In this document: positions 31,484 to 48,588 of the stretch, piece after piece
How positions within the stretch are numbered: the first letter of the stretch is position 1
Layout of the letters: every line of letters begins with the position of its first letter
Source of the DNA: Halopseudomonas xiamenensis
GTDB taxonomy: Bacteria; Pseudomonadota; Gammaproteobacteria; Pseudomonadales; Pseudomonadaceae
Reading direction: 5' to 3'
Length of the DNA stretch: 64,000 nt
NCBI RefSeq assembly: GCF_014219065.1
Contig: NZ_JACLGO010000017.1
Location: 28,511-92,510 of the forward strand
Made by a program: the position numbers and the translations under genes
The notes under the pieces: model-generated
What the model saw: only the letters and a program-made list of their open reading frames with translations
Told to the model about the DNA's origin: nothing
Database searches by the model: none

Positions 31484-31644
31484 ACCCTCACTCATATCAT
31501 ACAAACTGACGACAGCTAAAGTGATACAGGGGGAGTCGAGCCTGGTCAGAACGGAACCTCAGCCTGCCTATCAGCCCCGACGCCTATTCAGAAGCATACT
31601 TTTTGCCATCACAGAGTACGACCGGCAAGTCAGGCATCTCCTCC

Positions 31645-31838
31645 CTGTCGTCGAGCAAGCGCTCAACAACCCGGCCCCTAAGCCCCATGCCATCACCGAT
31701 GCAGCGCTTTCACCTCTCCCACCAGCACATCATCCGGCCCCTCCACTACCACATGCGGGGCGATATCCTGGATCGAAAGCATGTTTACCGGAGGCGGAGC
31801 CAGACTCATATCCTGGCGCCATGCAAGCAACCGCCGGA
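31645..31838 (-). pseudogene. 3' fragment of a nucleoside deaminase gene, duplicate of the end of the gene at 34622-35095
   Basis: These 194 bases align without gaps to 34592-34785. Translated on the minus strand they give 47 residues (including APPPVNMLSIQDIAP) of which 40 match the intact deaminase's C-terminus, ending at an earlier TGA. The first 100 or so residues, with the zinc motifs, are absent. It is therefore a truncated duplicate and not a functional enzyme. The rest of the interval 31484-31886 shows no gene. Confidence 0.8.
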
Positions 31839-31886
31839 CAGACAGTCTCCCCCCTCAAAGCCACGATGCTCAAAGCTCCAGACTGT

Positions 31887-33062
31887 TCAAGGCGACATAC
31901 GCGCTGTCAAACGTCGGAATTCCTCTTTCATGTTTTCATTCTGGAATTCGCGTACATCGGGCATCTGCAGTGAAATGAGCTGCTCGAAGGTGTTCGCACC
32001 CTCACGGATCATGCTCACGACTGCCGAGCTGAGAGACACTGTATTGTAGGTATTGTTGGCGACTCGTATTTCCTTCTCGGTTACCTGCAATGCCTTACTG
32101 ACCTTGTTCTTCTGGTCATTGAGAACCTGCTCATACAGTTCAATAACCCGCAAGGTCATTTCATTAGCTTCGATGTTGCTCTTTATCGTCTGAGGATGGG
32201 TCCCTGTTTTCAGCAGGGCTCGGGCCTCTTTCAGGTTGTCGTTGGCTGTGGCGCGGAACTCCGCCAACTTGGGTAAATACTCCCCATTCACCTCAGCCAA
32301 AAACTGTTTCTGCATGGTGCCAATAAGGCGATGCAAGACCACTACCATGCCGTAATACTTCTTTGCGTGCTCCAAATCTTCTCCGGATTCCTGGGTAAGC
32401 ACGCTGAGCTGCACCGTCAGGTCCTTGATAGCATTGAAAACCACTGTCATCCCCATTATGTCGTCTCCTGTGACAGAGGACAGCATGGTGTCGAGCTGGT
32501 CGTTCGTGAGATTCAAGCCGATGGCAGCCAGCGCCGTAGCCATCTCAGTCAACGTTTGTATCTTTTCCGCTTCAAAGCTTTCGATATTGCCTTCAGTTGC
32601 CTCAATAAGCAGGTCGTAGTCTTCCCGGGTAGAGGCCACCCACTGCTTCAGGGTTTCCCCGGGCACGAGATTGATGCTCAGACTACGCCCATCGCTGGGC
32701 GCCAGGACCCGATCCCGCCGTAACTGAGTAAGGCGCCGTCTCTCAGCGGCTACCCGGCCTTCCAGCTGTTGATACTGGCTTCGCATGGTATTGATACCAT
32801 CCGATTCAAGAAGTCCAATGGCCTCCTTGATAAGCTTATCAAGGTCAGTTTCTGCCGATTTCTGGTCCCTACCTAGAAGTCGAGACCGCTCCAGAGTTGG
32901 GATCTCATCGTGCACGGTGAGTGCCTTTTCAAGCTGGCCAAGCACCTTGCGTGTATCAAAAGACAGCACCCGCTCACGGGTCCATTCCTCAGCATGAGAG
33001 TTCACGCTGACCAGCGCACAGGTCAACAACAGACCACAGAAAAACTTCTTCACCATACTCAC
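31887..33062 (-). CDS. hypothetical exported coiled-coil protein
   Basis: The 391-residue protein is not recognised. It has a clear signal peptide (VKKFFCGLLLTCALVSVNSHAEE) and no later membrane helix, so it is probably periplasmic. The mature part is almost wholly helical with heptad-like stretches at about 88-115 (YQQLEGRVAAERRRLTQLRR) and 255-345. The start could be GTG at 33062 or ATG at 33056; AAGAGG lies 11 bases before the GTG. GC content is below that of the core genes. It converges with the membrane protein gene, so the two are not an operon. Confidence 0.65.
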   Translation of the reverse strand: MSMVKKFFCGLLLTCALVSVNSHAEEWTRERVLSFDTRKVLGQLEKALTVHDEIPTLERSRLLGRDQKSAETDLDKLIKEAIGLLESDGINTMRSQYQQLEGRVAAERRRLTQLRRDRVLAPSDGRSLSINLVPGETLKQWVASTREDYDLLIEATEGNIESFEAEKIQTLTEMATALAAIGLNLTNDQLDTMLSSVTGDDIMGMTVVFNAIKDLTVQLSVLTQESGEDLEHAKKYYGMVVVLHRLIGTMQKQFLAEVNGEYLPKLAEFRATANDNLKEARALLKTGTHPQTIKSNIEANEMTLRVIELYEQVLNDQKNKVSKALQVTEKEIRVANNTYNTVSLSSAVVSMIREGANTFEQLISLQMPDVREFQNENMKEEFRRLTARMSP

Positions 33063-33585: not shown

Positions 33586-34557
33586 ATGAGCCAAACCAAA
33601 CCGCCACCACAGGACCACGACAGTCCCTGGAAGGAAGCATTGGAGTATTTCTTTCAGCCCTTCATGCAGCTACTCTACCCGGACATCCATGACGCCATCG
33701 ACTGGACGGTGCCGGCGGAGTTTCTCGACAAGGAACTGCAGAAGATCAACCACAAGGCCAGCGCCGGGCGGCGTTATGCCGACAAGCTGGTCAAGGTCCG
33801 CTACCGCGATGGCGACGCCTGCTGGATACTGATTCACGTCGAGGTGCAGGGCGAAAAGGAAGACGCCTTTGCCGCACGCATGTACAGCTATTACCACCGC
33901 ATCCGCGACCGTTACGGCCTGCGAGTCATCAGCCTGGCGGTGCTGGCCGATACCGATCCGGCTTTTCGCCCGGCATCCTTTGAGGAGCAACTGGCCGGCA
34001 CCGGCGTGAGCTTCCGCTTTCGCAGCATCAAATTGCTGGATTACCTGCCGCGCCTGGAAGAGCTCAAGCACGATGACAACCCTTTCGGCCTGTTGATTGC
34101 CGCCCAGTTGACTGCCAAACTGGTCCGCGACGGCAAGACCAGGGCCGATAACCTGATCAGCTTCTACCGCCTGGCCATCCGCAAGCAGCTGGAGCGGGAG
34201 CGGCTCGGCCAGTTGGTGATCTTTCTCGAATGGATGGTCGCCTTGCCGGAATCGGTCAATGATTATTACGAAGAGCAACTGGAGACTCTGCAGGAGGAGG
34301 CAGCCATGACCTATATCAGTTCATTCGAGCGTAAAGCCATGGAGAAGGGAGTTGCTCAGGGGCTTGAGCAGGGGCTCGAACAGGGAGTTGTCCAGGGCAG
34401 CCTGAGTATTTTGCTCAAACAGCTGAGCCACCGCTTCGGTGAGCTCGACCCGACGGTGCTGCAGAAGCTGCATGAAGCCAGCCCTGAGCAGTTGGAGCGT
34501 TGGGCGGAGAACATACTTGACGCCCAGACACTGGATGAGGTGTTTAGCCTGCATTGA
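33586..34557 (+). CDS. Rpn-family (YhgA-like, PD-(D/E)XK) nuclease with DUF4351-type tail
   Basis: The 323-residue protein begins with the YhgA/Rpn N-terminal region (WKEALEYFFQPFMQLLYPDIH) and has candidate PD-(D/E)XK residues D66 (YADKLVKV) and E86-V-Q88 (HVEVQGE). A charged, Gln/Gly-periodic linker (GLEQGLEQGVVQG, about 258-270) follows. It ends in a DUF4351-like domain (LLKQLSHRFGELD ... LERWAENILDAQTLDEVF). Rpn proteins are DNA nucleases linked to recombination and phage defence. Some make a second protein from an internal start that inhibits the nuclease. A strong internal ribosome binding site is present here. Confidence 0.85.
   Translation: MSQTKPPPQDHDSPWKEALEYFFQPFMQLLYPDIHDAIDWTVPAEFLDKELQKINHKASAGRRYADKLVKVRYRDGDACWILIHVEVQGEKEDAFAARMYSYYHRIRDRYGLRVISLAVLADTDPAFRPASFEEQLAGTGVSFRFRSIKLLDYLPRLEELKHDDNPFGLLIAAQLTAKLVRDGKTRADNLISFYRLAIRKQLERERLGQLVIFLEWMVALPESVNDYYEEQLETLQEEAAMTYISSFERKAMEKGVAQGLEQGLEQGVVQGSLSILLKQLSHRFGELDPTVLQKLHEASPEQLERWAENILDAQTLDEVFSLH
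34306..34557 (+). CDS. possible intragenic short Rpn product (candidate antitoxin, 83 aa)
   Basis: AGGAGGAGG ends six bases before an in-frame ATG at 34306 inside the Rpn gene, better than the signal of the full-length start. The encoded 83 residues (starting MTYISSFERKAMEKGVAQG) cover the linker and DUF4351-like tail only. For Escherichia coli Rpn proteins, C-terminal products from internal starts have been reported to block the toxic nuclease. The site is seen; expression and function are inferred. Confidence 0.5.
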   Translation: MTYISSFERKAMEKGVAQGLEQGLEQGVVQGSLSILLKQLSHRFGELDPTVLQKLHEASPEQLERWAENILDAQTLDEVFSLH

Positions 34558-34621
34558 GCGGGGTAACGGAGCAGGTACATTTTCACCCATATCGTCGAGC
34601 AGTCACTCAACAACCCGGCTC

Positions 34622-35095
34622 CTACGCCCCGTGCCGTCGCCGATGCAGCGCTTCCACCTCCCCCACCAGCACATCAACCGGCCCCTCCACCGCCACATTC
34701 GGGGCGATATCCTGGATCGAGAGCATGTTTACCGGTGGCGGAGCCAGGCCCATGTCCTGGTGCCATGCGAGCAGTTGTCGGGCGGAGCAGATATACACGA
34801 TACGGCCCAATCCAACCCAGCCGTGGGCGGCTGAACACATAGGGCAGTGCTCGCCGGAGGTGAAGACGGTGGCAGCCGCCCGTTCTTCTGCACTCATATG
34901 CTCGGCGGCCCAACGGGCCAATTCGAATTCCGGGTGGCGCGTGTTATCGCCGCCACCAACCTCGTTGCGGGCTTCCGCCAATATCGTACCGGTAGCACCT
35001 ACCAGTACCGAGCCAAACGGCTCATCTCCCGCCTCCAGCGCCTGCTGCGCCAGTTCGATGCAGCGGCGTAGATGCTGCAGTTCTGAATCCTGCAT
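34622..35095 (-). CDS. nucleoside/guanine deaminase family protein (CDA fold)
   Basis: The protein is 157 residues from the ATG at 35095, chosen because GAGGAG lies nine bases upstream. It has the zinc site of the cytidine-deaminase superfamily: H54-P-E56 (proton-shuttling Glu) and C84-P-M-C87 in GEHCPMCSAAH. The N-terminal helix LRRCIELAQQALEAGDEPFGSVLV is typical of guanine deaminase/TadA-like enzymes, but it is not the tRNA-editing TadA by context. The substrate is uncertain. A partial duplicate of its 3' end lies at 31645-31838. Confidence 0.82.
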   Translation of the reverse strand: MQDSELQHLRRCIELAQQALEAGDEPFGSVLVGATGTILAEARNEVGGGDNTRHPEFELARWAAEHMSAEERAAATVFTSGEHCPMCSAAHGWVGLGRIVYICSARQLLAWHQDMGLAPPPVNMLSIQDIAPNVAVEGPVDVLVGEVEALHRRRHGA

Positions 35096-35219
35096 GATAA
35101 TGAACTCCTCAAAAGGAAAAGAGCCCCGGCACACCCGTGATTACGGATCAGCTCAACGCCGAAACCATTCAGCAGCAAGGATAACTCGGGACACGATAAA
35201 TGGACCGCTCAAACCTTGA

Positions 35220-35489
35220 TCATCCCTTCGCCAGACTCACTCGCCCTCGCTTGTCATCCAGCAGACTGCGCATCATGCCTCTGTCCCAGGCACGTAGCAT
35301 TTTGCTGCCCATATCGGTAAACGAGTCAGTACTATTCATGTGCTCGCGTAGCTCAGCAGCCGCTTGGCTCACCCCCTCCGCCACTCTCTCAAGACTCTGT
35401 GCAACCTGGGCCTCGCTCAGTCCACAGGCGATTCTGCCGAAGTTATAAAGCAGCCGATGCTTTGGCCAATTCTTGGACTGCAGAGTCAA
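35220..35489 (-). pseudogene. HipA C-terminal fragment behind an XRE regulator
   Basis: The 89-residue frame resembles only the last part of HipA-like kinases (AQVAQSLERVAEGVSQAAAEL ... GSKMLRAWDRGMMRSL). A full HipA is about 430 residues, so the kinase core is missing. Its ATG overlaps the XRE gene stop (4 bases), so it is still positioned for coupled translation. I read it as the remnant of a hipBA module after an internal deletion. The resemblance is from memory and could be wrong. Confidence 0.45.
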
Positions 35490-35737
35490 TCATCGAAGCA
35501 GCGCTCCTTCAGCTCATCGAGAGTGGGCCGGCCACTTTGCAGTTTCATCGAGAGGGTATGCCCTAGCACGTTAAGCAGCTTCTCATACTTGCGTATGCCG
35601 AGCTCCAGTACCGTATTGTTCTCGATACCGGACAGCGTTGCGCGGCTGATGCCAACCTGCGCCGCCAGCTCAGCCTGGGTGAGACCCCGCTCCTTACGCA
35701 GCCGGCGGATGGAGCGGCCGAGTTCTTCAACACTCAT
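35486..35737 (-). CDS. XRE-family helix-turn-helix regulator (HipB-like)
   Basis: The protein is 83 residues from the ATG at 35737; an upstream TTG at 35755 would add six residues. The helix-turn-helix is LTQAELAAQVGISRATLSGIE followed by a second helix pair. The C-terminus GRPTLDELKERC is like that of HipB-type antitoxins. Such proteins bind their kinase partner and repress their own operon. Here the partner gene is only a fragment, so it may act as a lone repressor. Confidence 0.78.
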   Translation of the reverse strand: MSVEELGRSIRRLRKERGLTQAELAAQVGISRATLSGIENNTVLELGIRKYEKLLNVLGHTLSMKLQSGRPTLDELKERCFDD

Positions 35738-35815
35738 GTCATATATCCGATGCAAAGACAGGATTCTGTTTCATTATGCATTGTATACCTGACATTACAA
35801 GGCGCTGTGCACCGC

Positions 35816-47712: not shown

Positions 47713-47991
47713 ATGATAAAAAGCTTCCGCTGTAAGGATACACAAGCGCTTTTCGAAACCGGTAGAACCCAGCGCTGGGCCAGTATTGCGAAGGTTGCCA
47801 CCCGCAAACTGGCCCAATTGGATGCAGCAGCAACCCTGGACTTCCTGAAGAGCCCTCCAGGCAATCATCTGGAGTCATTGCAAGGTGACCGGCAAGAGCA
47901 ACACAGCATCCGTATCAACAAACAATGGCGACTGTGTTTCGTATGGCATGAAGAAGACGCATTTGATGTCGAAATCACTGACTACCATTGA
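47713..47991 (+). CDS. higB: HigB-type mRNA interferase toxin
   Basis: The 92-residue RelE-superfamily protein has the HigB-type opening MIKSFRCKDTQALFETG. The core LAQLDAAATLDFLKSPPGNHLESL and C-terminal INKQWRLCFVWHEEDAFDVEITDYH match the toxin fold with its active-site Arg and terminal His. It cleaves mRNA on the ribosome. higA follows 10 bases later, giving the toxin-first order of hig modules. It is controlled by the operator just upstream. Confidence 0.93.
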   Translation: MIKSFRCKDTQALFETGRTQRWASIAKVATRKLAQLDAAATLDFLKSPPGNHLESLQGDRQEQHSIRINKQWRLCFVWHEEDAFDVEITDYH

Positions 47992-48001
47992 GGGCAACAC
48001 C

Positions 48002-48301
48002 ATGATCAGGAACGGTATGCGCCCGGTACATCCGGGGGAAATTTTACGCGAGGACTACCTGGAACCCTTGGGCCTGTCTGCCACCGCCTTGGCCAAGGCG
48101 CTGCATGTGACACCTGCCCGCATCAACGATATCGTACGCGAGCGCCGCGGCGTCACCGCCGACACAGCTCTGCGCCTGGCCCGCTATTTCGGTGGCGACG
48201 CACAAAGCTGGATGAACCTGCAAAGCACATACGATCTGCGCAAAGCGGAAATCGAAGCCGGCCAGATCATCGACCGGGATATCATACCCAGGGCAGCATG
48301 A
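48002..48301 (+). CDS. higA: HigA-type antitoxin/XRE regulator
   Basis: The protein is 99 residues from the ATG at 48002, with GAGGG upstream; a longer frame is open into higB but is not credible. It begins MIRNGMRPVHPGEILREDYL, typical of HigA. The helix-turn-helix is LSATALAKALHVTPARINDIV. It neutralises HigB and represses the operon, most likely at 47684-47698. Confidence 0.93.
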   Translation: MIRNGMRPVHPGEILREDYLEPLGLSATALAKALHVTPARINDIVRERRGVTADTALRLARYFGGDAQSWMNLQSTYDLRKAEIEAGQIIDRDIIPRAA

Positions 48302-48315
48302 TCCAGGCTGCCTGA

Positions 48316-48588
48316 ATGCACGAATATCAAGAACGCTACCCGCAGGAGAACACCAGGATGATCGGATTGACTGAGCGTCTGCTGAATGAGGGGATGCAAA
48401 AGGGAATGCAAAAAGGACGGCAGGAAGGTGAGCTCAACCTGTTGATCCGCCAACTCACCCGTCGCTTCGGCCCGCTGGATGCCATCACCCTGCAACGCCT
48501 GCAACAGGCCGACTCAGAGAACCTTGAGCGCTGGGCCGATAATATCCTCGATGCCAACAGCCTGGATGAGGTATTTGCCAGCCGTTGA
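48316..48588 (+). CDS. orphan Rpn C-terminal tail (DUF4351-like), stand-alone small protein
   Basis: The frame of 90 residues resembles only the tail of the Rpn-family protein at 33586-34557 (LIRQLTRRFGPLDAITL ... LERWADNILDANSLDEVF), including the periodic GMQKGMQKGRQEG linker. The best translation start is the ATG at 48358 (AGGAG nine bases upstream), giving 76 residues, which matches the place of the internal start in the full gene. It follows higA by 14 bases. It may be a relic of a Rpn gene or a kept inhibitor. Confidence 0.62.
   Translation: MHEYQERYPQENTRMIGLTERLLNEGMQKGMQKGRQEGELNLLIRQLTRRFGPLDAITLQRLQQADSENLERWADNILDANSLDEVFASR

Follow-up and report, generated by a model that had tools for sequence, protein, structure and literature searches.

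Does a bacterial gene for a predicted nuclease also encode, within its own reading frame, a shorter protein that keeps the nuclease in check? The question is raised by a stretch of 64,000 nucleotides (nt) of Halopseudomonas xiamenensis DNA (contig NZ_JACLGO010000017.1, positions 28,511 to 92,510; hereafter the window), in which a gene resembling those of the Rpn nucleases has a Shine-Dalgarno (SD)-like sequence, AGGAGGAGG, just before an in-frame ATG that opens its DUF4351 tail (Table 1). Intragenic toxin-antitoxin systems of the RpnL/RpnS kind have been described for RpnA to RpnE of Escherichia coli and for an Rpn protein of Clostridioides difficile (Zhong et al. 2023, PMC10327210), and according to the same paper the E. 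coli short form blocks growth inhibition and SOS induction and, in the case of RpnA, also DNA cleavage. We find that a putative internal initiation signal is maintained in relatives of the window gene, and consider it probable that this gene encodes an Rpn-type nuclease with an intragenic antitoxin, the internal ATG at 34306 yielding a DUF4351 tail that likely blocks the nuclease.

A putative internal start under selection at synonymous sites

The internal ATG (34306-34308) lies in frame with the gene as codon 241 (Met241 of 323) and is separated from AGGAGGAGG by the spacer CAGCC (34301-34305). The preliminary description of this locus had the SD and the frame right, but placed the SD six bases before the ATG where there are five. 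This putative SD looks both stronger and closer to its ATG than that of the long form, AAGGA, found twelve bases before the ATG at 33586. Taken by itself, AGGAGGAGG in the window gene constitutes no evidence, because chance frequency and the codon null explain a single site of this kind: it occurs once in the window against 0.58 expected and at least once in 48 of 100 shuffles, and, the gene being rich in GAG, 61% of its synonymous-codon shuffles give an equal or better SD match. Judging the internal start from the window gene alone was therefore dropped, and the evidence presented here is comparative, because the family-wide signal exceeds the synonymous null, which that of the window gene does not. 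We found no internal sigma-70 promoter in the gene, no signal of open mRNA structure around the internal start, and no Rfam element at gathering score between 31 and 36 kb of the window.

A protein search returned 2189 homologues at E 0.001 among 7998 candidates scored, with 120 listed; the window protein and 111 of these 120 form an alignment of 112 sequences, the other nine of the 120 being omitted as near-identical (P0001), short (P0033, P0052, P0058, P0064, P0070, P0104, P0110) or long (P0089). Relatives at the DNA level were drawn from genus, family, order, class and phylum genomes and from 16 plasmid records, fetched of 40 listed. They comprise 119 frames in 101 loci, 104 of which could be placed at the internal-start site; upon adding the plasmid loci, 107 frames have the site at least 150 codons in (past codon 220 in the plasmid loci), 93 are left once those more than 90% identical upstream are removed, and dropping the misplaced frames L036_2 and L090_2 gives 91 non-redundant genes. 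The SD score is the length of the longest stretch upstream of the site that matches the SD consensus, compared with that in 2000 synonymous-codon shuffles.

The residue at the site is methionine in 103 of the 112 aligned sequences and valine in the remaining nine, never leucine or isoleucine. The preliminary description had expected homologues with DUF4351 tails to keep an internal start and a ribosome-binding site, and this idea survived the comparison: the codon is capable of starting translation in 88 of the 91 genes (ATG 83, GTG 5, other 3), and 72 have an SD match of at least 5 nt, against 26.2 expected in the shuffles. All five valine codons at the site are GTG, the GTG shares elsewhere in those genes being 0.71, 0.08, 0.10, 0.36 and 0.55 (product about 0.001). 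The mean SD match is 5.08 nt against 3.98 in the shuffles, none of which is as high, and a scan of 305 positions places the excess at this site, with z values of 12.8, 12.3 and 11.3 at positions 240, 241 and 242 and a maximum of 4.9 outside 239-243. GAG accounts for 126 of the 138 glutamate codons at the SD, where 61.9 would be expected, while conserved glutamates elsewhere are without such an excess (Glu50, 39/83; Glu86, 33/88; Glu248, 38/82), on a GAG background that is itself uneven, column 78 being GAG-poor (17/70 against 33.7 expected). Other internal methionine codons of the same genes (n=425) have a mean match of 3.05 nt, with 32 reaching 5 nt or more, and a 5-nt SD is found in none of the three genes that have no start codon at the site.

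The excess persists among 51, 37 and 21 representatives below 70, 60 and 50% identity (0/2000 shuffles each). It is likewise present in 28 GAG-poor genes (SD of at least 5 nt in 19 against 4.0 expected) and in 14 cyanobacterial genes (11 against 2.8; L114, cyanobacterial but with no methionine candidate, is excluded), the mean being reached in 0/2000 shuffles for either subset. The spacing from SD to start, taken from the core found first, is 8-10 nt in 60 of the 91 genes. Certain observations weigh on the other side: the excess is weaker among nine representatives below 40% identity (36/2000 shuffles), the SD match falls short of 5 nt in 16 of the 88 genes that have ATG or GTG at the site, and the proline codon just after the site methionine is biased too (CCT 24 against 7.3 expected, z 7.2), which could reflect either an initiation-region preference or shared descent. 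Viewed as a whole, the comparison establishes that a putative internal initiation signal is under selection at synonymous sites in both Cyanobacteriota and Pseudomonadota, the former phylum being taken from named cyanobacterial records and the latter from a named Halomonas record and the genome of the window.

Tail, four-residue repeats and predicted nuclease domain

The preliminary description spoke of a DUF4351-like tail, and the PF14261 profile indeed scores 43.7 bits with the short form and 39.4 with the full-length protein, against a cut-off of 25. Its further statement, that the ATG stands exactly where the linker and tail begin, is borne out: Met241 sits in a predicted break (residues 240-242) between a helix at 222-239 and the long tail helix at 243-284. 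In the model of the short form (predicted local distance difference test score, pLDDT, 85.0) helices span residues 6-44, 49-57, 60-69 and 76-81. A fold search with the tail alone gave no PDB match at E 0.001 or better, and the absence of the RpnA short form from that list is uninformative. Between Glu248 and Phe284 the spacing varies from 20 to 76 residues and is divisible by four in all but one of the 112 aligned sequences (111/112), so that tail length changes by four residues at a time, as it does in Rpn proteins.

Identification of the N-terminal part as a nuclease is a prediction from the AlphaFold model, the invariant residues and the names of some homologues, of which P0056 is labelled as Rpn family and P0112 as RpnC/YadD family. 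The predicted structure of the full-length protein, made with the 112-sequence alignment, has a pLDDT of 83.3; the AlphaFold model finds its best matches among PD-(D/E)XK enzymes at middling Z (7.5 for EndoMS), and E50, D66, E86 and Q88 may constitute the catalytic site. Foldseek gave no match at E 0.001 or better, the predicted nuclease domain of the window protein has no Pfam match, and no credible relative of solved structure was found by sequence. The PADLOC profile PDLC01084 ('putative invertase') was rejected for the full protein, the match being weak (20.4 bits) and limited to the coil region.

Table 1. Features of the window discussed in the text (aa, amino acids; ORF, open reading frame)
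Feature	Position	Strand	Remarks
Full-length RpnL-like gene	33586..34557	+	323 aa, 37.4 kDa; predicted PD-(D/E)XK nuclease domain, helical middle, DUF4351 tail
Predicted nuclease core, about residues 11-150	33616..34035	+	E50, D66, E86, Q88 invariant in 112 aligned sequences
Internal SD-like AGGAGGAGG	34292..34300	+	within Gln-Glu-Glu codons (CAG GAG GAG G)
Putative short form (RpnS-like), internal reading frame from ATG 34306	34306..34557	+	83 aa, 9.4 kDa
Four-residue repeats GVAQ GLEQ GLEQ GVVQ G	34348..34398	+	first tail helix, from short-form residue 15
DUF4351 (PF14261), residues 265-318	34378..34539	+	profile match
HigB-like toxin 47713-47991 (PF05015) and HigA antitoxin 48002-48301 (TIGR02607)	47713..48301	+	directly upstream of detached tail
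Detached DUF4351 tail ORF (L003), without nuclease	48316..48588	+	90 aa counted from 48316, 76 aa counted from the conserved ATG 48358
SD-like sequence and ATG of detached tail	48344..48360	+	AGGAG 48344-48348, nine bases, ATG 48358

The same tail on other nuclease classes

DUF4351 tails are linked to four N-terminal kinds: the window class and the L005 class, both without a Pfam match, PF04754 (L009) and PF12784 (L008). In the L005 class an SD-like sequence and an ATG stand at the tail start in 14 of 14 loci, mostly as CAGGAG-N9-ATG (13 identified by pattern and L128 read; L124 and L130 represent a single place, and the majority coincide with places already met among the loci). The single PF04754 gene scanned, L009, has CAGGAG-N9-ATG at the tail start as well; in L008, the PF12784 example, the codon aligned with the ATG is CTG, and there is no such start. 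The putative internal signal is found, then, in three nuclease classes that share the DUF4351 tail.

Detached and nuclease-broken tails

Eleven copies of the tail occur without an intact nuclease or apart from one (L002, L003, L004, L011, two in L017, L027, L099, L100, L105 and L140); these are junctions that we happened upon, an unsystematic sample in which part of L140 is masked, and L155 (whose best match is its full-length neighbour), L156 (at a contig edge) and L158 (which looks to be of the PF04754 class) are left uncounted. The tail frame is open in ten of the eleven, L105 having an internal stop. An SD-like sequence precedes the conserved ATG in nine of the ten open tails, with only a 4-nt match in L002 and both L017 copies; the detached copy in L099 has an open frame and no SD-like sequence before the conserved ATG.

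The detached tail of the window itself begins 14 bases past HigA (Table 1), and no trace of the nuclease segment of its class was found elsewhere in the window. At a second place in the same genome (L002:1081-1893), the first codons and the tail are kept and an addiction-module antidote gene (TIGR02684/PF21716) lies between them, in the place of the nuclease segment; this tail is 86% identical to the window short form over 71 residues and has fewer repeats than the window gene. Detached tails with the same ATG and SD-like sequence lie downstream of a full-length gene in L017 (twice), L100 and L027. In L017 (2206-3013), two detached tails lie in tandem behind a complete nuclease gene; they differ in repeat number, and both have an SD-like sequence and an ATG of their own. 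On a Synechococcus plasmid (L105:1-2730) a copy stands beside the DISARM gene drmA, with a second, stop-broken tail downstream, partly annotated as a separate DUF4351 gene. The reverse case, a nuclease frame without a readable tail, is seen in at least four relatives (L036, L039, L040, L071).

Ratios of nonsynonymous to synonymous substitution rates (dN/dS) between detached or broken tails and full-length genes are 0.05-0.13 (L002, L003, L004, L124), 0.06-0.09 (L017) and 0.30 (L100), with 0.17 between two full-length copies as a reference and the two copies of L099 identical; these values are compatible with constraint and are not leaned on here, as the pairs include time before detachment and the dS of L002 is odd (1.09 in the tail, 0.32 before it).

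Proposed mechanism and alternative explanations

The comparisons establish a putative signal selected at synonymous sites, with GTG as the sole valine alternative, present in three nuclease classes; they also show tail frames that remain open in copies with a missing or broken nuclease. We propose that ribosomes would start at ATG 34306 and yield a separate 83-aa tail, and that this short form may outnumber the long form, because the internal SD looks stronger and closer than the AAGGA of ATG 33586. As E. coli RpnA forms a stable complex of long and short forms (PMC10327210), tail-tail pairing through the long repeat helix would inhibit the nuclease of the long form. Repeat number would set the specificity of this pairing, as it does for E. 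coli RpnC (PMC10327210); since the L002 tail has fewer repeats, it would by this rule not match the window gene. DNA cleavage would thus be blocked and, by the E. coli precedent, might be released under stress or infection. The preliminary description had suggested an intragenic antitoxin: that the short protein is real is favored by the synonymous selection, the GTG-only valine and the detached tails, and its action as an antitoxin is suggested by analogy with E. coli RpnS (PMC10327210). A bolder generalization, which we regard as possible but doubtful, is that DUF4351 tails form a portable antitoxin cassette with its own SD and ATG, fitted to at least four Rpn-type nuclease classes, of which loose tails persist as free antidotes, even in type II loci such as HigBA, and protect the cell from Rpn nucleases encoded by relatives, plasmids or phages.

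Other explanations of the signal need to be weighed. It might simply follow from codon bias and from conservation of the protein sequence Glu-Glu-x-x-x-Met at a helix break, with no short protein made; indeed the codon null suffices for the window gene alone, and AGGAGGAGG is expected about once per two such windows. Against the family-wide synonymous excess, with its single peak in 305 positions and the excess of GAG at the SD (126/138 against 61.9), this explanation appears quite improbable, the more so as valine is encoded by GTG only, Glu50, Glu86 and Glu248 show no GAG excess, and the three genes without a start codon also lack a 5-nt SD. Even less credence is due to the notion that GAGGAG...ATG is kept as a DNA element, namely a recombination or repeat-expansion site for tail exchange, and not as a translation signal. 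Its spellings vary (GAGGAG, CAGGAG and GAAGAGGA, with AAGGAG in E. coli), as do the spacers, and the strongest fixed features are the SD codons and a start-capable codon, with valine solely as GTG; on its side stand the presence of the same tail on several nuclease classes, whose junctions near the site may be reused, and the suggestion of Zhong et al. that Rpn may act in changes of its own repeats (PMC10327210).

It is also conceivable, though unlikely in our judgement, that the internal start is real and selected and that the short tail is no antitoxin, serving instead as a structural partner of the nuclease or as a setter of oligomer size. All the selection evidence supports the start and not inhibition, Cas11d from within Cas10d offers a precedent (PMC10327210), and the tail-less nuclease frames L039, L040 and L071 are odd for a toxin that needs its tail. 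However, the tails of L002, L003 and L004 are retained with no intact nuclease belonging to them, so that a free inhibitor suits better than a subunit, and the E. coli short form prevents growth inhibition and SOS induction as well as, for RpnA, the cleavage of DNA (PMC10327210). We accordingly favor the intragenic antitoxin.

A putative hidden start is maintained in a large and mostly unannotated family of nuclease-like proteins of Pseudomonadota and Cyanobacteriota, and, because it is under synonymous selection, two proteins are likely made from very many of the genes that go by the names 'hypothetical', 'cytosolic protein' or 'DUF4351'. An internal start would explain the near-invariant methionine and shows annotators where the second product belongs. 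The codon-shuffle scan requires no expression data and could reveal other genes within genes.

Distribution and genomic neighborhood

The family is patchily distributed, with matches in 5 of 37 genus genomes (E 0.001) and 16 of 298 family genomes (E 1e-20); among plasmids there are 65 records with matches, and the genus name marks at least 52 of these as cyanobacterial. No match was found in phage records. We infer that the family has been transferred horizontally. A search of the genome's own contigs returned two loci only. Some phylum genomes (among G1047-G1187) have up to 81 first-look candidates each, at most seven per genome having been scored, and might represent a large expansion of the family.

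In the window, a direct repeat of 200 nt, 86% identical between its copies (31643-31842 and 34587-34786), flanks the nuclease gene and a 391-aa neighbor and may mark a duplication or insertion; its second copy overlaps the end of a deaminase gene (34622-35134, PF00383). The 391-aa ORF (31887-33062, minus strand) lies upstream in divergent orientation and has no Pfam match (E 0.01) or PADLOC match (E 0.1). Further on, a gene for an 89-aa HTH_3 protein (35486-35755, minus strand) adjoins an 89-aa ORF without a family match (35220-35489, minus strand), and the two are a possible toxin-antitoxin-like pair.

Comparison with known systems

The experimental basis of the intragenic antitoxin consists of work in E. 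coli and on one C. difficile gene, and DUF4351 is, according to PMC10327210, the annotation of separate rpnS genes in certain species. Beyond that paper, a literature search by title and start of abstract found nothing on this internal start, most subscription papers being outside its coverage. The window gene is like the Rpn genes of E. coli and C. difficile in combining a predicted nuclease with an in-frame internal start where the helical tail begins, in having four-residue repeats 8-20 residues past the internal methionine (at residue 15 in the window gene), in the occurrence of extra tail copies as separate genes, and in its patchy distribution. Unlike E. coli RpnA and RpnE, whose nuclease domain belongs to PF04754 and whose tail has no DUF4351 profile match, the window protein has a predicted nuclease domain without a Pfam match and a DUF4351 tail; profile comparison of this tail with three E. 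coli tails (RpnA, RpnE, YpaA) gives a weak match (probability 33%, E 4.5e-4). In the DNA of E. coli rpnA, rpnE and ypaA, AAGGAG-N6-ATG is found at either codon 244 or the detached copy, whereas the SD of the present family is written in Glu or Gln-Glu codons, mostly with a spacing of 8-10 nt.

The detached tails that follow a full-length gene and have the same ATG and an SD-like sequence recall the separate rpnS and ypaA genes; unlike these, two detached tails in this genome stand behind type II toxin-antitoxin genes, in the nuclease's place (47713-48588 and L002). Cas11d from within cas10d, mentioned in PMC10327210, is similar in that an internal start gives a second product from one gene, but it is a complementary subunit and not, like the Rpn short form, an inhibitor. 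The preliminary description saw here a possible extension of the Rpn scheme to a different tail family, which stands insofar as the tail differs from those of RpnA and RpnE, but not as a novelty of the label, DUF4351 already being reported for rpnS in PMC10327210. The RpnL/RpnS kind and the DUF4351 label on separate rpnS genes are, to that extent, already known from that paper; the present analysis adds a tail and nuclease class not seen in E. coli RpnA or RpnE, selection at synonymous sites of the putative internal signal in two phyla, and detached tails beside toxin-antitoxin genes.
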